Assembly: GCF_025452195.1 (NCBI RefSeq)
Contig: NZ_CP104969.1
Coordinates: 204,001-268,000, forward strand
Length of the DNA: 64,000 bases
Source: Phyllobacterium zundukense
GTDB taxonomy: Bacteria > Pseudomonadota > Alphaproteobacteria > Rhizobiales > Rhizobiaceae
Reading direction: 5' to 3'
A model generated the notes under the pieces. The model was not told where the DNA came from. It was given only the letters and a program-made list of their open reading frames with translations, and made no database searches. Position 1 is the stretch's first letter. Each line of letters opens with the position of its first letter. This document shows positions 7,337 through 18,139 of this stretch, piece by piece. Both the position numbers and the translations under genes were made by a program.

Positions 7337-8107
7337 TCATTGCCGAGCCACCATCGTGGCGATCCATGATCGCACGGTATCTGCGGAGTCCAGCTTGAAT
7401 TCGGCAATGCTCTCGAAAGGCGGATCGCCCACTCTCACCGAGCGTCCCCCCGTTTCGTTGGCAAAGCGGAACATGGTTTCGTCAGTCAGATCGTCGCCCA
7501 TGACGAGAAGCTTGCGCCCTGCATAGGGTGCGGTCTCCATGAAATGCGCGACCGCGATGCCTTTATTGGTTCCGGCAGGCCCAATTTCGATGACCATCTT
7601 CCCGTCCTGGCGCTTCCACCCATAACCGAGATCCTTGACCAGGCCGTCGACCGCATGCGCGGCGGGAATGGCTGCTTCCGGGACCTGCCGGTAGTGCACG
7701 GCGAGCCCCAGACCCTTGTCTTCGATCACCATACCCGGCCATCGGCTCGCAAATTTCTGCAGCATCATGCGCGGGCGGTCGAGCGCCGCTGCTTCAATCC
7801 CCTTTCGGAGAATTTCCGCATTTTCCCTGCGGATTTCCGCGCCATGCAGACCCGCAACGGTGAAGTGGTAGGGTTCAAACATCGCATCGACTGCAGCGAT
7901 GGAACGGCCGGTCACAAGTGCCATGGCACCATCTGCCTTTTGTGACAGCTTCATGAGTTGAGATGGTAACTCCGGAGGAACGACGATGCTTTCAGGCGTT
8001 GCCGCAAGATCAATAAGCGTGCCATCAATGTCTATGAAGAGCGCCCAACCATTCAGATCGTCAGGCAGTGGGTGATTTGCAGTATCAACCGCCGTGCTCG
8101 GCTGCAT
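7337..8107 (-). CDS. otsB: Trehalose-6-phosphate phosphatase
   Basis: Encodes 256 residues from the ATG at 8107, which has AGGAAAGAGA upstream; an in-frame ATG at 8149 is possible. It belongs to the HAD superfamily: the nucleophile motif FIDIDGTLIDLA is near residue 25, ALVTGRS supplies motif II, and MGDDLTDETMF is the late metal-binding motif. The cap-domain segment HGAEIRR is typical of OtsB. The enzyme removes phosphate from trehalose-6-phosphate to give trehalose in the cytoplasm. It is transcribed divergently from otsA across a gap of about 150 bases, so the two steps of one pathway probably share a control region. Confidence 0.93.
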   Translation of the reverse strand: MQPSTAVDTANHPLPDDLNGWALFIDIDGTLIDLAATPESIVVPPELPSQLMKLSQKADGAMALVTGRSIAAVDAMFEPYHFTVAGLHGAEIRRENAEILRKGIEAAALDRPRMMLQKFASRWPGMVIEDKGLGLAVHYRQVPEAAIPAAHAVDGLVKDLGYGWKRQDGKMVIEIGPAGTNKGIAVAHFMETAPYAGRKLLVMGDDLTDETMFRFANETGGRSVRVGDPPFESIAEFKLDSADTVRSWIATMVARQ

Positions 8108-8256
8108 ATCTCTTTCCTTTGCTCGAACTCCCATCATTGAAGAACTCAACCGGCCCTGAATCGTTCAATGAAAGTTGGCTTGATGCCGACTTTTTCCGGA
8201 ACCATCAAGCCTTTGAGGAGTTGGTTAGAGTCCTGACTGCATGCAAGGGACATCTT

Positions 8257-9657
8257 ATGGGACGGCTAGTCGTAATCTCAAATCGCACTGCGAATTTGGG
8301 AAAGAACACTCAAATTGGCGGACTTGCTGTCGGTATCGTGGATGCACTTAAAGCTCAAGGCGGCCTTTGGGCCGGCTGGGACGGAAGTGTCGTAGACGCC
8401 GAAGAAGCCGCAACAATCAAGATCCAGACGCATGGCAATGTCACGAGCCTGACCACCCCACTGACGAGCCAGGAACACGAAAAATACTACCTCGGCTTCG
8501 CCAACAAAGTGCTTTGGCCTGCCTTTCATTATCGCCTTGACCTGATGGACTATCGCATGGAGTTCGTGGATTGCTACTCTGCAACGAATGCGAAGTTCGC
8601 CGAGATGGTCAGTCCGCATCTGCGGGACGACGATGTTATCTGGGTGCATGACTACCATCTGATACCTATGGCTGCGGAGCTCCGCAAACGGGGCCACAAG
8701 AACAGGATCGGATTTTTCCTGCACATCCCGTTCCCCTCTGCCGACATCTTCTCCGCCGTCCCTCGCCACGAATGGCTGCGATACTGCATGCTGCAGTTTG
8801 ATCTCATCGGCTTCCAGACGATCAATGACGTCCATAATTTTCATCGCTATCTCAAAGAGCATTCCGATGCGGCAATCATTTCGCCCGAACTGGTTCGCGT
8901 TAACGATCGCACGATCCATATCGGGCATTTCCCCATCGGCATCGATGTGAAGCAGTTTGCGAAAGTGTCGGCCAGAACCGACGATACGATCGAACTCGAA
9001 CGCATGCGCCGCACCGTTCTGAAGCGCTTCCAGGTCATTTCCGCGGATCGCCTCGATTATTCGAAAGGCCTGCCGCACCGCATGAAAGCCTTTAGAAAAT
9101 TTCTGGAGATTTGTCCTGAATATCAAGGACATGCCGATTACTTGCAGATTGCCTCGCCCTCCAGGGAAGATGTCACCGCCTATTCCGATATCAAGGCCGA
9201 ACTCGAGCAGCTTGCCGGCGCGGTCAATGGCAGGTTCGCGGATTTCAACTGGGCGCCTGTCCAATACATCAATCGTAACATTCCAAGAGAAAAGCTGGCC
9301 CCGCTGTTTCGGGCAAGTCTGATCGGGCTGGTGACGCCATTGCGGGACGGAATGAACCTTGTGGCCAAAGAATATATCGCCGCTCAGGACAACAAGGATC
9401 CAGGCATCCTTATCCTCTCCAAGTTCGCGGGTGCAGCCGAAGAACTGAGCGAGGCGCTCATTGTCAATCCCTACGACATCAGCGAGGTTGCGCACGCTTT
9501 GAAAACCGCTGTCACAATGCCGCTGGAAGAGCGGCAACTGCGCCATCGCAAGCTTCTGAAACGCGTCATCGATCGCGATGCGCAATGGTGGCAGCGGGAA
9601 TATCTTCATGCCCTGCAACATGGCGATCATCACTCCGCCAATGAACGGGTTGCTTGA
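8257..9657 (+). CDS. otsA: Trehalose-6-phosphate synthase
   Basis: Encodes 466 residues, the usual family length, from the ATG at 8257 (MGRLVVISNR); the longer open frame upstream overlaps the otsB promoter. It is a GT20 glycosyltransferase: GGLAVGIVDAL forms the glycine loop, VHDYHLIPMA and FFLHIPFPSADIF are the N-terminal domain motifs, SADRLDYSKGLPHRM holds the UDP-sugar-binding Arg and Lys, and DGMNLVAKEYIA binds the donor. It joins UDP-glucose and glucose-6-phosphate to make trehalose-6-phosphate. The stop lies five bases before the next ATG, so it is co-transcribed with the TreY-like gene. Confidence 0.95.
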   Translation: MGRLVVISNRTANLGKNTQIGGLAVGIVDALKAQGGLWAGWDGSVVDAEEAATIKIQTHGNVTSLTTPLTSQEHEKYYLGFANKVLWPAFHYRLDLMDYRMEFVDCYSATNAKFAEMVSPHLRDDDVIWVHDYHLIPMAAELRKRGHKNRIGFFLHIPFPSADIFSAVPRHEWLRYCMLQFDLIGFQTINDVHNFHRYLKEHSDAAIISPELVRVNDRTIHIGHFPIGIDVKQFAKVSARTDDTIELERMRRTVLKRFQVISADRLDYSKGLPHRMKAFRKFLEICPEYQGHADYLQIASPSREDVTAYSDIKAELEQLAGAVNGRFADFNWAPVQYINRNIPREKLAPLFRASLIGLVTPLRDGMNLVAKEYIAAQDNKDPGILILSKFAGAAEELSEALIVNPYDISEVAHALKTAVTMPLEERQLRHRKLLKRVIDRDAQWWQREYLHALQHGDHHSANERVA

Positions 9658-9662
9658 AGAAT

Positions 9663-12317
9663 ATGACCCTACCCAATTCCGCCTATCGCATTCAGTTGAG
9701 GAACGGACTGTCCTTCAATGATGTAGCGGCAATCGTCCCGTACCTGAACAATCTCGGCATCGATACGCTCACCATTTCTCCAATTTTCAGCTCGATCGAT
9801 GTCGGGCGCGGCAAGAAATCCTATAACCCGACGAAGCTGGACAGGGACGCGGGGGGCGAAGATGGCTTCGTCGCCCTTGATTCTGCACTTCGCAAGTTCG
9901 GTATGGGGCTCATCGTCGATATCAATCCAAACCAGCTGCCAGCTACGCACCACAATCCCTGGTGGTTTGATGTTCTCGAATGGGGATCAAAGAGCCGCTA
10001 CGCCGAGCATTTCGACGTGGACTGGAAAAAACGTCTGGCGCTTCCCGTTCTACAACGTCCGTTGGTCGAAGAAGTCCAGGCCGGGACTCTGCAGCTCAAA
10101 TTCGATCCGAACAAATTTGCCCTCGGCATCTCTTACGGCGAGGTGTTTTATCCACTGCATCCAAAATCCTATGAAACTATCCTTCGCGGCGTCGACAACG
10201 CCCTTTCGAATGATTTTCTGGATGCAGTAAACGAGGCCGACCCGCAACGATCCGACGAATTTCATGTCCGGTTGCGAGAACTCTACGACACCAGTGAACT
10301 CGCGCATCGTCTCGTGCTTGCGTCGCGCCTGAAAGATATCTCTCAGGACATCTCGATGCTCGAAGACGTGCTTTCGACGCAAAAGTGGCGTCTGGTGACA
10401 CGTCAGAAGGCTCGCCGCCGGATGAATTATCGCCACTCTTTCGAATCCATGCATTCTGTCGGTGTTCAGGTCGAAAAGACACAGCCATTCAAGGACTTTC
10501 ACGAGGTTCCGCTCGATCTGCTCGAGATCAGCCAAGTCATCGGTTTTCGTGTCAACCAGATCGACGGTCTGGCCGATCCTGAGACATATTCGCAGGAATT
10601 GCGCCGGCACGCCGGCGAAAAAGCCTATCTGGTCGCCGACAAGATTCTTCTGGACGGCGAACCTTATCCCGCTTCATGGCATGTCGATGGAACTGCAGGC
10701 TACGAGTTCATCTCTGTGACCGCGAACCTTATGGTCGATCATGCAAAGCTGGCTGAACTCGAACAGCTCTACAGCCACAATATTGGCGCGCAAAGTACGC
10801 TCCACTATCGCGTTGCAAAGTCAGCTGTGCTGCACAGCAGATTCGCTGCGGAACTGCAGGCACTGGTCGACCTGCTCATTCTGATAGAGCCGAATACGGC
10901 CGACGAACTTGAGCTGAGGCGCGCGGTAAGCGATCTCGTAGTCGAACTCCCGGTTTTCCGGACCTATTCGAATGAGGCGGGAATCCTCGAATCCTATCGA
11001 TCCATTCTCCAGTCCACCATTTCCGATATTTTGGCACGTCCTGACGCTGCCGATCCCGCTCCGCTGAAGTTCGTGCAGCGCATATTGGAAGCGGCGAATG
11101 ATCCTGACGGGAAAATTGGTGAATTCATCGTGAGATTCCAGCAATTGACCGCCGCTGTCATGGCCCAGGCAATCGAACAATCTTACCAATACGGTCGTGG
11201 GCCGATCGCGCTTGACGAAGTCATATTGCGCTCGAGTGATGCCGGGGATTCGGTGCAGCTCTTCCACGAAAAGATGCTGCGCAAAGCCACGGTGGCACCC
11301 AAGGGAATGTTGGCGACAACGTTCTCCTACACCACAAAATTCGGCGAGGATGCGAGGATGCGGCTTCTCGCTCTGTCCGAAGCGCCGGAAATCTGGTGCG
11401 AGGCGGTGGCGCGCTGGCGCAAGCTCCATGCGCGCAGTGTTGCAACCATCGAGGAAACGCTGGCGCCTGACCCCCAGACCGAATGGCTGATCTATCAAAC
11501 CCTTGGCGCGATCTGGCCTTTGACGCTGCAGATCGACGATGAAAATAGTTTGCAGGCCGTTCATAACGATCTCTGCGCATTCATTCAGAAGGCGATCAGC
11601 GAAATTCAAAGGGATTCCTTCTGGACCGAAATAAACAAGCCCTATGAGCTGGCCGTGATGGACTATATCGGTCAGCTCTTCGCCGACCGCTCGTTCCTGC
11701 TGGACTTCACAAAGACGTTGCGGCCTTTCTGGATAGCCGGGGCGATCAATAGTTTTTCGCAAACTGTCCTGAAGGCAACTGCTCCGGGCGTTCCTGTCAT
11801 CTACAATGGAGCGGAATCCTGGGATTTCGCCGTATCGAACATTCCGGCATCGAATGACATAGATTTCGATGCGCTGACTGCCCGGCTTTCCTATGCAGAT
11901 CAGTGCCCCTTGAACATTCTCCTGGAGGATTGGCATACGGGTGCCGTCAAACAGCGGCTTGTCGCCGCCCATCTTCGGGCTCGAAAACGCAAGCCTGAAT
12001 TGTTCATCGACGGAGAATACATTCCTCTGAAGGTCACCGGCAAGAAGCGAAGAAACGTTATCGCTTTTCTGCGCAAGCATGAATCGGACTATTGTCTGGT
12101 TGCCGTGCCCCGCCAACCCTTCGAAGCAGTGAAACGGTTTCACGAACCCTTCATGCCGATACCTGCCTGGGGCGACACGACAGTTCATATTCCGGCGGAA
12201 ATCAAAGGCAAGGATTTTCAGGACATCATGACGGGCAATCGATTGACCTTGACGGACAAGTGTCTCGTGGCCGATGCGATGCGGGGATTTTCCACGCTGT
12301 CGCTGATGTCGGATTAG
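9663..12317 (+). CDS. TreY-family (maltooligosyltrehalose synthase-like) protein with altered catalytic motifs
   Basis: Encodes 884 residues from the ATG at 9663; an in-frame TTG at 9654 overlaps the otsA stop. Scaffold signatures of TreY remain: NPWWFDVLEWG (98-108), DGLADPETY (301-309), VDGTAGYEF (341-349), RFQQLT (491-496) and TAPGVP in the C-terminal part. The GH13 active-site motifs are changed. Region I reads DINPNQ where TreY has D-VPNH. Region II reads GFRVNQ where RIDH is expected (nucleophile Asp to Asn298, His to Gln299). The general-acid VEKIL is ADKIL (Asp326). Region IV VEDT is IEQS (Gln506). The early HGYDV segment reads KSYNP, and the DPDNRR loop is lost. This compares it with the remembered family consensus, not a computed alignment. 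No treZ is nearby. A non-catalytic or repurposed TreY partner of OtsA is the likeliest reading. Confidence 0.8.
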   Translation: MTLPNSAYRIQLRNGLSFNDVAAIVPYLNNLGIDTLTISPIFSSIDVGRGKKSYNPTKLDRDAGGEDGFVALDSALRKFGMGLIVDINPNQLPATHHNPWWFDVLEWGSKSRYAEHFDVDWKKRLALPVLQRPLVEEVQAGTLQLKFDPNKFALGISYGEVFYPLHPKSYETILRGVDNALSNDFLDAVNEADPQRSDEFHVRLRELYDTSELAHRLVLASRLKDISQDISMLEDVLSTQKWRLVTRQKARRRMNYRHSFESMHSVGVQVEKTQPFKDFHEVPLDLLEISQVIGFRVNQIDGLADPETYSQELRRHAGEKAYLVADKILLDGEPYPASWHVDGTAGYEFISVTANLMVDHAKLAELEQLYSHNIGAQSTLHYRVAKSAVLHSRFAAELQALVDLLILIEPNTADELELRRAVSDLVVELPVFRTYSNEAGILESYRSILQSTISDILARPDAADPAPLKFVQRILEAANDPDGKIGEFIVRFQQLTAAVMAQAIEQSYQYGRGPIALDEVILRSSDAGDSVQLFHEKMLRKATVAPKGMLATTFSYTTKFGEDARMRLLALSEAPEIWCEAVARWRKLHARSVATIEETLAPDPQTEWLIYQTLGAIWPLTLQIDDENSLQAVHNDLCAFIQKAISEIQRDSFWTEINKPYELAVMDYIGQLFADRSFLLDFTKTLRPFWIAGAINSFSQTVLKATAPGVPVIYNGAESWDFAVSNIPASNDIDFDALTARLSYADQCPLNILLEDWHTGAVKQRLVAAHLRARKRKPELFIDGEYIPLKVTGKKRRNVIAFLRKHESDYCLVAVPRQPFEAVKRFHEPFMPIPAWGDTTVHIPAEIKGKDFQDIMTGNRLTLTDKCLVADAMRGFSTLSLMSD

Positions 12318-12320
12318 GAA

Positions 12321-14078
12321 TTACGTCGCATCGAGAGACTGATTGCGTTTCCTGCGTGAAACGTTCATCGCTTTTCTCTCTTTGGCCATATCGCTGACTG
12401 CGGCTCGAAGTGCGGGATGCTTCGACATGAAAACATTGAAATCCCGGCGCTCGAGAACCAGGAACTGACAAAAATCGACTGCAATGACGTCCGCGGTCCT
12501 GCGCCCACCGCTCAGAAGCGCCATTTCACCAAAGAAGGATCCAGCCTTCAGGCGAACCGGGTCGTCCTCCAGTTGAACCTCCACTGCTCCCGATGAAATG
12601 AAATACATGCCATCGCCACGATCGCCGACGCGAATGACGCGTTCGCCCGGCGACGCCACCTTTGGCCGAAACAACAGGAGAAGCTCTTCCTGAGAATTTT
12701 CGTCGACCTGGGCAAACATCGGGAAAGTCTCGATCAGCTGCTGCATTTCCAGCTGATGCTGCCTGTTTCTTTCATCGCTGATCTTCCGGATACGCTCCAG
12801 CTCGCGGCAAAGTGCGTCATGCTTGCGCTTTCCGTATTGTTCAAACTGAGATGGCCACTTTCGATGGACGGCCTTTTGCAGCCAATCGCCGCCGAGCAGG
12901 ACGAGTGGGTTGACTGTGATCGACAGTATGGCACCGGCGAGTATGAGGTCCTGTCCCTCACGTGGCAAAAGGCCGAGCGAAACACCGAGACTAGCCAAAA
13001 TGAAAGAAAACTCGCCGATCTGCGCCAGACCGGCAGCGACCGACAGCCCCATCGCAATCGGATAGCGCAAGAGGACGACGATCAGAAACCCAATCAACGA
13101 TTTACCAAAGATGATCAGCGCCAGCACGGCAGCAACCGCAAGCGGGTCGCGGATGATGACATAGGGGTCGAAAAGCATCCCGACAGAAACGAAAAACAGT
13201 ACGGCGAATGCATTCTGCAAAGGTAGGGAGTCGGCCGCCGCACGATGGCTGAGATGCGACTCGCTCATGACGACGCCTGCGACAAACGCCCCGAGCGCAA
13301 AGGATACCCCGAAAATCTGCGCCGAGCCGAAGGCGATACCGAGGGCAACGGCGAGAACGGAAAGCGTGAACAGTTCGGGTGAGCCGGTGCGGGCAACCAA
13401 TGTGAGAATCCACGGAACGACCTTGGGCCCGAAATATATCGCCATCACCGTAAAAGCGCCGACCTTGAGCAGGGTTATGCCGATGGTCAATGTGATGGCA
13501 AGGCCACCGCCTGTGGTGGCGGCATCTCCGGCTGCTGCGTCCGCATTACCGCCCAGAACCCCTGAAAAGGCTGGCAACAGCACCAAGGCGAGAACCATCG
13601 CCAGATCCTCGACGATGAGCCAGCCGACGGTCACGCGGCCATTTACAGAGTCGACCTGGTTGTGCTCTTCCAGTGCCTTGAGCAGGACCACCGTGCTGGC
13701 GACGGAAAGACTTAGGCCAAAGACGATACCCGCACCAAGACCCCAGCCCCACAACGAACAAAGGCCGATACCGAGCAAGGTAGCAAGCAGGATACGCCCC
13801 AGCGCTCCGGGGACAGCGACACCTCGAACCGCCAAAAGATCGGAGGCGGAAAAATGCAGGCCCACGCCGAACATCAGCAGGATAACGCCCATTTCCGCGA
13901 GCTGCGAGGCAAGCCCGCTATCGGCGACGATGCCTGGTGTATACGGCCCCATCATGATGCCGGCGACGAGATAGCCGACCAGCGGCGGCAAGCGCAGACG
14001 ATCGGCCAGATAGCCGAAGACCGCGGCAAACACAAAGCCGATAGCAACCGTCGCTAAGAGCGAGACCTCTTGATGCAC
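12321..14078 (-). CDS. CPA2 monovalent cation/proton antiporter with C-terminal cyclic-nucleotide-binding domain
   Basis: Encodes 585 residues from a GTG at 14078 preceded by AAAGAGGGA. The first 400 residues are an Na+/H+ exchanger-type membrane domain like E. coli YbaL/KefB (RLPPLVGYLVAGIMMGPYTPG; LLMFGVGLHFS; SLSVASTVVLLKALEE). YbaL-type proteins usually end in an RCK/TrkA-N domain. Here the last ~140 residues instead form a cNMP-binding fold (VIRVGDRGDGMYFISSG, GSFFGEMALLSGGRRTADV), which includes the GEMALL phosphate cassette. It probably exports K+ or Na+ against protons under nucleotide control. It is convergent with the TreY-like gene, with only three bases between the stops. Confidence 0.88.
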   Translation of the reverse strand: MHQEVSLLATVAIGFVFAAVFGYLADRLRLPPLVGYLVAGIMMGPYTPGIVADSGLASQLAEMGVILLMFGVGLHFSASDLLAVRGVAVPGALGRILLATLLGIGLCSLWGWGLGAGIVFGLSLSVASTVVLLKALEEHNQVDSVNGRVTVGWLIVEDLAMVLALVLLPAFSGVLGGNADAAAGDAATTGGGLAITLTIGITLLKVGAFTVMAIYFGPKVVPWILTLVARTGSPELFTLSVLAVALGIAFGSAQIFGVSFALGAFVAGVVMSESHLSHRAAADSLPLQNAFAVLFFVSVGMLFDPYVIIRDPLAVAAVLALIIFGKSLIGFLIVVLLRYPIAMGLSVAAGLAQIGEFSFILASLGVSLGLLPREGQDLILAGAILSITVNPLVLLGGDWLQKAVHRKWPSQFEQYGKRKHDALCRELERIRKISDERNRQHQLEMQQLIETFPMFAQVDENSQEELLLLFRPKVASPGERVIRVGDRGDGMYFISSGAVEVQLEDDPVRLKAGSFFGEMALLSGGRRTADVIAVDFCQFLVLERRDFNVFMSKHPALRAAVSDMAKERKAMNVSRRKRNQSLDAT

Positions 14079-14451: not shown

Positions 14452-15201
14452 ATGGACCGCCAGCAGCTGTTTGCGGAGATCCGGTCGCGGATCGACGCGT
14501 TCGAAACGGGAATTCCCCTGCACAAGAAATTGAAGATGGCGCTGCAGGATCTCATCATCAGCAACCGCATAAAACGCGGATCTACTCTTCCAGGCGAGCG
14601 AGCGGTGGCGGAGGCTCTTGTCCTTTCGCGTGTCACCGTAAGAAAGGCCCTCGAACTTCTTATCCAGGATGGCCATTTGCGGCGGCGACATGGCGCGAAG
14701 ACTGAAGTAAGCGTTCCTGTCGAGAAATCGCTTTCGACCCTCGCGAGCTTTTCCGAGGATATGATTGCGCGCGGACTTCAACCCGGATGTATCTGGATTT
14801 CCAAGGAAATCAGCCGCCCATCCCCGGCGGAAGCGATGGCGCTCGCCTTGCCGCCAAATGCCGATATCATTCGCTTGAAACGAATACGGACTGCTGACGG
14901 AGAGCCCGCCGCCTACGAGACTGCAGTCGTTCCGGCAAAGTTTCTGCCATCACCCGAACTCGTTGGCGATTCCCTATACGAGGCACTGGCAAAGCGCAAT
15001 GCGCTGCCACAGCGGGCCATACAACGGCTGCGTTCTCGGCCTGCTTCGGTCCTTGACAGCGAGCTCTTGAAGTGTGCGGTTGGCGCACCGCTGCTCATCA
15101 TTGAACGGCGTTGTTTCCTTGCCGACGATCAGCCCGTGGAATTTACCGAGACAAGATATCGCGGCGATCTCTATGATTTCGTTACGGAGCTAAGCCGCTA
15201 A
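14452..15201 (+). CDS. GntR/HutC-family regulator with UTRA domain
   Basis: Encodes 249 residues from an ATG with AAGGAG nine bases upstream. A winged-helix GntR domain fills roughly residues 22-90 (GSTLPGERAVAEALVLSRVTVRKALE and QDGHLRRRHG). A UTRA ligand domain follows to the end (ETAVVPAKFLPSPEL; EFTETRYRGDLYDF). This subfamily senses sugar phosphates or amino-acid derivatives and usually represses the adjacent uptake and catabolic genes. The position upstream of nanEK and a sugar transporter suggests an amino-sugar phosphate effector such as ManNAc-6-P or GlcNAc-6-P, which is inference. The ATACCAGTT sites on both sides of the gene are likely targets. Confidence 0.9.
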   Translation: MDRQQLFAEIRSRIDAFETGIPLHKKLKMALQDLIISNRIKRGSTLPGERAVAEALVLSRVTVRKALELLIQDGHLRRRHGAKTEVSVPVEKSLSTLASFSEDMIARGLQPGCIWISKEISRPSPAEAMALALPPNADIIRLKRIRTADGEPAAYETAVVPAKFLPSPELVGDSLYEALAKRNALPQRAIQRLRSRPASVLDSELLKCAVGAPLLIIERRCFLADDQPVEFTETRYRGDLYDFVTELSR

Positions 15202-15271: not shown

Positions 15272-16810
15272 GTGAAAATCGGGGATCTCGAACGCAGCCT
15301 TATCGTCTCCTGCCAGCCGGTTCCGGAAGGCCCGATGGATCGTGCCGGCATGGTCACGGCGTTTGCCTTGGCGGCGATTGCCGGAGGTGCAAGCGCACTC
15401 AGGATCGAATCGGTGGAATATGTGCGAGCGGTCCGCCAGGTGACGGACGCGCCTATCATCGGCATCGTCAAAAAAGATCTTGAAACGTCACCCGTCCGCA
15501 TCACGCCCGGTGTGGCTGACGCAGTGGCGCTGATCGACGCCGGCGCACAGATTGTGGCGTTCGACGCAACATCGCGCCCGCGGCTGGATAATGTCGCGGA
15601 TATCATCGCGGCCATTCACGCGAAAGGCGCTTTGGCGATGGCGGACTGTGCATCGGTCGAGGATGGCCGCGCCGCGCTGGCCGCGGGTGCCGATTGTGTC
15701 GGGTCGACGCTGTCCGGATATACCGGCGGTCCGGTTCCCGATGCGCCGGATTTCGAGCTGATCGCCGGACTGCGGAAACTGACCCCTTATGTGATCGCGG
15801 AGGGCCGCATCCGGACGCCCGAGCAGGCAGCGGAAGCACTTCGCCAGGGCGCCTTCAGCATTGTGGTCGGCTCCGCCATCACCCGCACCGAGCATGTCAC
15901 CTCATGGTTCAGGCAGGCAATGGATGCCGGGTTTGCACGCAGAGCCAACCAAGCCGTGCTTGCGATCGATGTCGGCGGTACGAAAACGATGGCGTGCCTG
16001 GTGAAGGAAGGCAAAGTCATCGAGGAGGTGCAATTTGCTACCGACCACAATCTTGGTCCCGACGGCTGGATCGACGCTATCGCCGCGAAGGTCTCGAACT
16101 GGCGCGGCTCCTATGGGCGGGTTGCTGCTGCCGTCACGGGGATTGTCGTCGACGGAAACTGGCAGGCGCTCAATCCGGCAACGCTCAATCTGCCGCAAGG
16201 CTATCCGCTCATCGACAGGTTGCGCGGTACGTTCGGCGTCAATGCTATTGCCGTCAACGATGCGCAATGTGCCGCCTGGGGCGAGCACCGGCTTGGCGCC
16301 GGCGCACAGAAGGACATGGTGTTCCTCACGGTCTCGACCGGCATTGGTGGAGGCATCGTCATCAACGGCAGGCTCTTGCAAGGAACCGCCGGTCATTTCG
16401 GCTTGTTTCAGGGCTACTTTGAATGTTCGCACCGACCGCTTGAAGACAGCATCTCCGGTCACTGGATGAATGCGGAAGCCTGCAAGGCGGGCTATGAGCT
16501 GGACGCCCCGGCCATCTTCGCCGCGGCGAGGTCCGGCGCGCCATGGGCATCGCATATTATCGCAATTTCCGCCCGCCGCCTCGCTATACTCTGCCAGAAC
16601 ATACAGCTGGCGCTCGACCCGAAGTGCATCGTCATTGGCGGCGGGATCGGGCTTGCAGAAGGATATATCGATCAGGTTCGGGGCGCATTTACATTTCCCA
16701 AAATATCGCTGCGTCCAACCCTTGTGAGTGCCGGTCTCGGCCGTCACGCGGGGGTAATCGGCGCGGCGGATCTTGCCATTGCACAATCCAACTCAATTAT
16801 TGGAGGCTAG
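15272..16810 (+). CDS. nanEK: Bifunctional ManNAc-6-phosphate 2-epimerase / ROK-family ManNAc kinase
   Basis: Encodes 512 residues from a GTG with a GAGG upstream; no ATG is available in frame at the conserved N-terminus. Residues 1-225 are a NanE TIM barrel (IIGIVKKDL with the catalytic Lys region at 66-68, AEGRI with Glu177). Residues 229-512 are a ROK sugar kinase beginning with DVGGTK (233-238) and containing VNDAQCAAWGEH, whose Asp is the likely base. Together they would turn ManNAc into ManNAc-6-P and then GlcNAc-6-P in the cytoplasm. The usual ROK zinc motif (C-x-C-G-x-x-G-C) is reduced: the segment reads ECSHRPLED, so the structural zinc is probably missing. No sialate lyase or nagA/nagB gene is adjacent. 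Confidence 0.88.
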   Translation: MKIGDLERSLIVSCQPVPEGPMDRAGMVTAFALAAIAGGASALRIESVEYVRAVRQVTDAPIIGIVKKDLETSPVRITPGVADAVALIDAGAQIVAFDATSRPRLDNVADIIAAIHAKGALAMADCASVEDGRAALAAGADCVGSTLSGYTGGPVPDAPDFELIAGLRKLTPYVIAEGRIRTPEQAAEALRQGAFSIVVGSAITRTEHVTSWFRQAMDAGFARRANQAVLAIDVGGTKTMACLVKEGKVIEEVQFATDHNLGPDGWIDAIAAKVSNWRGSYGRVAAAVTGIVVDGNWQALNPATLNLPQGYPLIDRLRGTFGVNAIAVNDAQCAAWGEHRLGAGAQKDMVFLTVSTGIGGGIVINGRLLQGTAGHFGLFQGYFECSHRPLEDSISGHWMNAEACKAGYELDAPAIFAAARSGAPWASHIIAISARRLAILCQNIQLALDPKCIVIGGGIGLAEGYIDQVRGAFTFPKISLRPTLVSAGLGRHAGVIGAADLAIAQSNSIIGG

Positions 16811-16813
16811 AAC

Positions 16814-18139
16814 ATGCTTAAATTTACAAAAATCACTTTATCGGCTCTCGCACTGGTTATCACATCTCTTGGCGCCGCCAACGCCGCAGTTACCGTTCTG
16901 GGCTGGCCGGGCGGTTCGGAGGAAACCGCGTTGCGCGCTGTCGCTGAGGCCTACAACGCACAAAGTGGCGTTGCCGACGCGGATAAGGTAGAGCTTCTTT
17001 TCTATAGCCGCGATGGCTTCTACGACAAATTGCAGGCCGACATGGCAGCGGGGTCGAGCGCCTTTGATATCAATCTTCTCGCGACGTATTCGATCGGCCG
17101 CTACGCGTCCTACATGGAGCCGGTCGACCTCGGTCCGGATGCCGCCAAGGTATTTGGCGAGTCAGTACTGAAGACCATGCAGTTCGACGGCAAGCAATAT
17201 GGCGTCCCGACCGATCTCTCCTTGCATTTCATGTATTACCGCAAGGACCTCGTCGACGCCCTCATCGCCGACCCGGCGGCCAAGGCCAAATATGCCGAGA
17301 TCAGTGAAAAATATCTCGGCAAGGCTCTGGAGCCGAAAGCGCCCGACAGCTGGACCTGGGATGACTGGGCGGCGACCGCGCTCTATTTCGCAAAGTCCGT
17401 AAATCCCGAAAGCCCGGTTCGCTACGGCACGGTGCTGCAGATGAAGAACCTCCTCTTCAACATCATGGTGTGGCAATCCGTGGCCCGTGCCCATGGCGGC
17501 GACTGGATGGATGCTTCGGGCAATATCACCATCGACTCTCCGGCCTACCGGACGGCGCTGGAACTTTACAAGAAGCTCTATGATGCGGGTGCTTCGCCGA
17601 AAGATTCGCTGTCGTACGAATATGCCGAAACGAATGCTGCGTTCGGCTCCGGTCAGGTGGCGACGGCATTGCAGTGGAATGCTGCAGCCAGCGAACTGAC
17701 TGATCCCGCCAAATCTCCGGCGGTTGCGGAGAATGTCGGCATTGTTGCGCCGCCAGCCGGTGCGGCGGGTCGGGCTGACCATATCCATGGGCTCGGGCTT
17801 GGCATCAACAAGAACGCCAGGAACAAGCCAGGTGCGGCGAAGTTCCTCCAATGGCTCGCAACCGAAGACGCTGCCTTGCTTTATGCCCGCAGCGGCGGTT
17901 CGCCTGCACTCCTGCCCGATGTCGCGGCAAAGATCGCGAAGGAGCGGCCGGATCTCGTTACGCTCGGTCAATATGCCGGCGCCTATGGCTATGTCATGAC
18001 CGGCGCTACATCGGCCAATGCCTTTCCGGTTTACGAACTGCAGGCAAAGGAATTCACCGGCTACTGGTCGGGGCAGGAAACCCTTGACGAAGCGCTCGCC
18101 AATACCAAGGCCGGCATGCAGAAACTGCTGAAGCCTTAG
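16814..18139 (+). CDS. Sugar ABC transporter periplasmic binding protein (family 1)
   Basis: Encodes 441 residues with a Sec signal peptide ending near ANAA (about residue 25); the ATG follows GGAGGC. The start of the mature protein (VTVLGWPGGSEETALRAVAEAYN) and the later LQWNAAASEL and FLQWLATEDAALLYARSGG segments are typical of carbohydrate-binding family 1 proteins that serve MalFG-type permeases. It starts three bases after nanEK, so the ligand is probably an amino sugar or an oligosaccharide containing one. A structured repeat element separates it from the permease genes. Confidence 0.88.
   Translation: MLKFTKITLSALALVITSLGAANAAVTVLGWPGGSEETALRAVAEAYNAQSGVADADKVELLFYSRDGFYDKLQADMAAGSSAFDINLLATYSIGRYASYMEPVDLGPDAAKVFGESVLKTMQFDGKQYGVPTDLSLHFMYYRKDLVDALIADPAAKAKYAEISEKYLGKALEPKAPDSWTWDDWAATALYFAKSVNPESPVRYGTVLQMKNLLFNIMVWQSVARAHGGDWMDASGNITIDSPAYRTALELYKKLYDAGASPKDSLSYEYAETNAAFGSGQVATALQWNAAASELTDPAKSPAVAENVGIVAPPAGAAGRADHIHGLGLGINKNARNKPGAAKFLQWLATEDAALLYARSGGSPALLPDVAAKIAKERPDLVTLGQYAGAYGYVMTGATSANAFPVYELQAKEFTGYWSGQETLDEALANTKAGMQKLLKP

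Follow-up and report, generated by a model that had tools for sequence, protein, structure and literature searches.

In Phyllobacterium zundukense, the gene directly behind otsA encodes what we read as a non-catalytic descendant of malto-oligosyltrehalose synthase (TreY), called pseudo-TreY here, which selection has retained as a partner of the trehalose-6-phosphate synthase OtsA, a reading to which we give about an even chance. The protein has lost the three GH13 carboxylates, carries fixed replacements (N298, D326, N88 and others), is under purifying selection and is co-inherited with otsA and otsB. Operon position, co-occurrence and a conserved module speak for regulation or scaffolding of OtsA, which is the role that we favour among those raised by the first-pass annotation. 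Within the window, by which we mean the whole stretch of 64,000 nucleotides that was analysed, the three genes are placed as follows.

7337..8149, minus strand: otsB, trehalose-phosphatase, divergent from otsA (PF02358, 115.1 bits)
8257..9657, plus strand: otsA, trehalose-6-phosphate synthase (GT20), 466 residues, ATG start at 8257 (PF00982, 422.6 bits; TIGR02400, 544.4 bits)
9663..12317, plus strand: pseudo-TreY, 884 residues, ATG start and intact frame, matched by TIGR02401 and alignable with solved TreYs

The pseudo-TreY frame begins five bases past the otsA stop codon, which ends at 9657, and its 884 codons run from ATG to stop without an internal stop, both as first described from the letters of the window. 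Over residues 4-878, the NCBIfam TreY equivalog profile TIGR02401 matches the protein at 622.8 bits, which is a full-length match above the curated cut-off of 498.65, and the same profile matches all 13 Phyllobacterium orthologues at E 1e-50 or better. The solved TreYs 5zcr, 6lcu, 1iv8 and 3hje align across most of its length, and the sole Pfam match is to Alpha-amylase, a short one over residues 25-118 at 29.3 bits. A structure model built with 7 sequences was poor (mean pLDDT 46.5, pTM 0.32), and the pocket is not readable from it. Because the protein passes the TIGR02401 cut-off, annotation by this profile would name it malto-oligosyltrehalose synthase, and a carrier would be credited with an enzyme activity that pseudo-TreY very probably lacks.

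For the active site, we used the solved TreY 1iv8 as the reference, whose D228, E255 and D443 we take to be the catalytic GH13 triad, and we counted residues in the 13 Phyllobacterium orthologues and in 41 other TreYs of the order. Left out of the 41 were L022 (late start, visible motifs canonical), L025 (a piece of the same gene) and L081 (the same gene as L014). The positions concerned, all on the plus strand, are these.

9804..9821, plus strand: residues 48-53, where canonical TreYs have the HGYD loop; its Tyr-Asp stands in all 41 of them and gives way to K, R, L, T or A here
9933..9935, plus strand: Gln91 in DINPNQ, at the place of the region I His; Q in 11, H in 1 and R in 1 of 13 orthologues, His in 41 of 41 canonical TreYs
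10554..10556, plus strand: Asn298, where 1iv8 has the nucleophile D228; all 13 orthologues read N and all 41 canonical TreYs read D
10638..10640, plus strand: Asp326, where 1iv8 has the general acid E255; all 13 orthologues read D and all 41 canonical TreYs read E
11331..11333, plus strand: Thr557, where 1iv8 has D443, its third Asp; seven orthologues read T and the other six A, and all 41 canonical TreYs read D
11838..11855, plus strand: residues 726-731, where DPDNRR has been lost; columns 726-729 read D, P, D, N in every one of the 41 canonical TreYs and vary here

The replacements of the nucleophile by Asn298 and of the general acid by Asp326, proposed from the sequence of the window, therefore hold against 1iv8 and are fixed in every orthologue. 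The third position does not: it had been placed at Gln506, which aligns with a different Asp, invariant in 41 of 41 canonical rows but not the catalytic third. D443 of 1iv8 sits in THDTK, which aligns to T557 in SYTTKF of pseudo-TreY, and the alignment with solved TreYs thus leaves all three GH13 carboxylates missing, with the third lost at T557. None of the 13 otsA-adjacent orthologues retains the Asp/Glu/Asp set, which all 41 other TreYs aligned keep. Since this loss is fixed in the one group and absent from the other, it is more than chance. Gln91 aligns with the His of the canonical rows, as was claimed for DINPNQ, and the HGYD and DPDNRR signatures are gone, again as claimed; only 1 of the 13 orthologues retains the region I His. 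Position 299 is variable among the orthologues. Basic residues stand at 51 and 52, the place of the lost HGYD Tyr-Asp, in 9 of 13 copies and not in the other 4, so a phosphate-binding role at these positions cannot be general.

Orthologues were found in 13 of 20 Phyllobacterium genomes; they are 44-97% identical to the window copy, and none of them has an internal stop. By NG86, 6 of the 10 possible pairs of the five closest pseudo-TreY copies were compared and gave a dN/dS of 0.057-0.073, the comparison with the P. endophyticum copy gave 0.089 and a second pseudo-TreY clade gave 0.118-0.143 (3 pairs); the overall range of 0.057-0.143 comprises the 10 pairs that gave a ratio, and 2 further pairs were saturated, with no usable dS. 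For the same comparisons, otsA gave 0.030-0.075 (NG86), which indicates a somewhat weaker constraint on pseudo-TreY than on OtsA. We also compared the 150 columns conserved in at least 95% of the 41 canonical TreYs with nine diverse pseudo-TreY rows: 76 columns are kept, 14 have switched and are fixed, 24 are lost in all nine rows and 36 vary. The switched columns consist of 13 replacements, including D298N, E326D, V88N, N518D and R560F, and one deletion. This pattern of kept, switched and lost columns suggests changed function and not decay. In addition, 11 polar residues are invariant in the pseudo-TreY clade and rare in canonical TreY. With catalytic residues changed clade-wide (13 of 13), purifying selection and strict otsA linkage, the earlier suggestion that the gene is maintained gains ground, and the sequence evidence gives good support to the view that pseudo-TreY is a maintained pseudoenzyme.

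The link to otsA is seen throughout the genus. All 13 pseudo-TreY copies begin 5-50 bases behind an otsA (with script-chosen starts). Genes like otsA occur in 14 of the 20 Phyllobacterium genomes, 13 with pseudo-TreY and one (G016) without, and the 6 genomes that lack otsA have no pseudo-TreY (0 of 6). No otsA match was found within the roughly 1.5 kb flanks of 35 other TreY loci. TIGR02400 scores the 15 otsA matches of Phyllobacterium (two of them in G019) at 535-553 bits, all below its cut-off of 564.85, and the OtsA identity therefore rests on PF00982 for the window copy, on the adjoining otsB and on known OtsA motifs. Of seven strings that we take to be OtsA motifs, including VHDYHL and HIPFP, each of the 15 proteins contains at least six, with VHDYHL inexact in five and HIPFP in one. 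The second otsA of G019, at locus L050 on contig 37, is divergent, being about 51% identical to the others, and no pseudo-TreY match lies in the 294 bases beyond it.

Neighbourhoods were compared for 6 of the 13 module loci and for G016 (L085). The six loci fall into four kinds of surroundings (the window with L029; L087; L088; and L089 with L031, which have two further genes in common), and otsB, otsA and pseudo-TreY are the sole block common to all four, which indicates that the three genes remain together in differing surroundings. G016 has only otsB and otsA in common with the module loci and no pseudo-TreY, and this OtsA therefore does not always need pseudo-TreY. Near the operon, promoter patterns (2, against a mean of 2.9 in shuffles) and terminator patterns (6, against 4.7, sd 2.4) were not beyond the shuffles.

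We also asked which other enzymes of the pathway the carriers hold. The first-pass annotation had remarked that no treZ is present, and this is true of the whole P. zundukense genome, in which TreZ gave no match at E 0.001. TreZ scores above its cut-off in 2 of the 20 Phyllobacterium genomes (G002 and G006), and G011 gives only a weak partial match (47.4 bits); at the family cut-off it is missing from 11 of the 13 pseudo-TreY carriers, and the TreY reaction there is thus without an evident next enzyme. G002 and G006 hold a canonical TreY near TreZ, together with a TreS above cut-off, alongside pseudo-TreY, which indicates that dead and canonical TreY can coexist. In G002, these genes form a separate cluster on contig 2 (L086, 398000-416000), with canonical TreY, TreZ and TreS above their cut-offs. 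GlgA scores above cut-off in none of the 20 Phyllobacterium genomes, each of which gives weak partial matches (best 68.4 bits), and in 7 of 14 known genomes used as a control. GlgP has no match in the 20 genomes at E 1e-20 and is above cut-off in 5 of the 14 control genomes. A classical glycogen synthase that could feed a TreY reaction was thus not found in the 20 genomes, though imported maltodextrin or the GlgE route might still supply glucan, and P. zundukense itself has no TreZ match, no GlgA above cut-off and no GlgP match (at the limits given) that would supply the partner and the alpha-glucan of a TreY. Glucan binding, which had been offered as another possible role of the protein, is weakened as its main role by the lack of any GlgA above cut-off and of any GlgP match at E 1e-20 in the 20 genomes and by the loss of the HGYD Tyr-Asp, the THD Asp and, in all copies but one, the region I His. 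In sum, pseudo-TreY resembles TreY (TIGR02401; 1iv8, 5zcr, 6lcu, 3hje) in full-length homology, in length and in the core motifs RFQQ, GT.GY and TK.GED, but differs from it in lacking the triad, HGYD, DPDNRR and mostly the region I His, in lying behind otsA and in having no TreZ at cut-off in most carriers.

Several other explanations bear on these results. An active TreY with misaligned catalytic residues would account for the full-length match above the equivalog cut-off, but we consider it very improbable: three independent alignments agree, the flanking motifs RV.QIDGL, DKI and TKFGED anchor each position, and TreZ is missing from most carriers. Relocated catalytic carboxylates were considered and rejected, in that the nearby invariant acids D301, E562 and D563 are shared with canonical TreY. 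We see even less of a case for a decaying gene without function. Pseudo-TreY does evolve faster than otsA and is absent from one otsA-bearing genome, but all 13 copies lack internal stops, dN/dS is low wherever it was measurable and 211 of 884 positions are invariant among the nine diverse copies.

It is harder to set aside a neofunctionalised enzyme, although we judge it distinctly unlikely. Here the remodelled site would do another trehalose or trehalose-6-phosphate (T6P) reaction, by chemistry unlike the GH13 double displacement. Such a site would comprise N88, N298, D326 and D518, with R296, D301, K327 and others kept. The replacements at the catalytic positions are fixed and not drifting (N298 and D326 in every copy), and the clade has its own invariant polar residues, which would suit a new enzyme; against it, the three GH13 carboxylates have gone, as have most residues of the -1 subsite, position 557 holds either T or A and position 299 varies, and no GH13 enzyme known to us dispenses with nucleophile and acid. 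The same operon and co-inheritance evidence that we cite for a partner would also fit a carbohydrate-binding sensor or scaffold that shares an operon and a stress response with OtsA and does not touch it, and the core TreY columns kept outside the catalytic triad (76 of 150) are consistent with such a protein. We hold this to be unlikely, if worth keeping in view, because a direct partnership accounts more readily for genes that stay strictly adjacent in changing surroundings and because the genus has no GlgA above cut-off and no GlgP match as makers or users of glucan, although maltodextrin might be imported.

We therefore return to pseudo-TreY as a non-catalytic partner of OtsA. Under this model, the gene would be co-transcribed with otsA, and its product would bind OtsA or follow the substrates or products of OtsA. 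The remodelled barrel pocket may sense a sugar or sugar phosphate, and this sensing could tune T6P or trehalose synthesis, for example under osmotic stress. We suggest tentatively, and with somewhat more doubt than assent, that a bacterial T6P synthase has here acquired a dedicated regulatory subunit from another trehalose pathway, in the form of a TreY that no longer catalyses and whose remodelled pocket reads a sugar or sugar phosphate and so sets OtsA output. Counting against the partner reading, the faster evolution of pseudo-TreY than of OtsA may reflect loose constraint, and the fixed pocket residues could serve a new reaction equally well. If the partner model is true, bacterial trehalose synthesis has a control layer that nobody has looked for, and the model is directly testable with two neighbouring genes.

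Known systems offer partial likenesses. In yeast, Tps3 and Tsl1 are reportedly putative regulators of the T6P synthase. They would share with pseudo-TreY the role of helper of a T6P synthase, but they are relatives of T6P synthase itself, whereas pseudo-TreY is a GH13 homologue without homology to that enzyme (by Pfam, it matches Alpha-amylase only, and GT20 is found in OtsA). In plants, the GH13 paralogue ISA2 is bound by ISA1, and its catalytic residues vary across the whole lineage (PMC12510319). Both ISA2 and pseudo-TreY are GH13 proteins with altered catalytic residues that selection has preserved alongside an active enzyme of their carbohydrate pathway; however, ISA2 partners its own active paralogue (PMC12510319), and the supposed partner of pseudo-TreY is a GT20 enzyme of another fold. 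Pseudo-TreY would stand to a GT20 enzyme as the non-catalytic ISA2 stands to ISA1. In the openly licensed literature, we found no report of a TreY-family pseudoenzyme and none of a partner protein for bacterial OtsA, in keeping with the earlier impression that such a protein would be undescribed. The otsA of Mesorhizobium is the subject of one paper (PMC10886315), and another mentions both malto-oligosyltrehalose synthase and otsA (PMC11046441).

The pseudo-TreY clade appears, by profile scores and residues, to be confined to Phyllobacterium within the genomes sampled. With profile A1, six Phyllobacterium matches among 394 genomes of the family scored 1390-1659 bits, and the best other protein listed scored 731; in 397 genomes sampled from the order, no other protein listed scored above 720 bits. 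With a limit of E 1e-200, the candidates scored in 385 genomes of the class comprised only the window's own protein, and those in 398 genomes of the phylum comprised it and two others (L052 and L056), both canonical. These samples overlap, and at most two candidates per genome were scored among the matches listed. Residues were read in 24 non-Phyllobacterium loci of the family (156 of 394 genomes matched) and in 7 new loci of the order (145 of 397), the rest of the loci read coming from a further search, and all other matches were judged by bit score alone. A search of 72,556 plasmid records gave 341 matches, all below 60% identity, and of the best 30 of these, 29 are annotated treY and one is without annotation. 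Viral contigs added no further TreY rows.

In a quick tree, the pseudo-TreY clade forms one fully supported group with a long stem (1.06), apart from the canonical Phyllobacterium TreYs, on a weak backbone. An origin from those canonical TreYs (G002 and G006) was considered and tentatively set aside, as this tree groups the two apart, as a pair with full support, although its backbone is weak and nine rows are composition-flagged. A recent foreign origin was likewise rejected: pseudo-TreY has a GC of 0.542 and a GC3 of 0.633, near the 0.542 and 0.634 of otsA, and by eye its three subclades match blocks in the OtsA identity table. Most simply, pseudo-TreY would have come to lie behind otsA once, early in Phyllobacterium.

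Other genes of the window lie downstream. Convergent with pseudo-TreY, the frame at 12321-14078 encodes a sodium/hydrogen-exchanger-type membrane protein with a C-terminal cyclic-nucleotide-binding domain. Farther on, at 15272-16810, one frame joins NanE (N-acetylmannosamine-6-phosphate epimerase, PF04131) and, by Pfam, a ROK kinase domain, and it is flanked by a GntR/UTRA regulator (14452-15201) and a sugar-binding protein (16814-18139), both assigned by Pfam.
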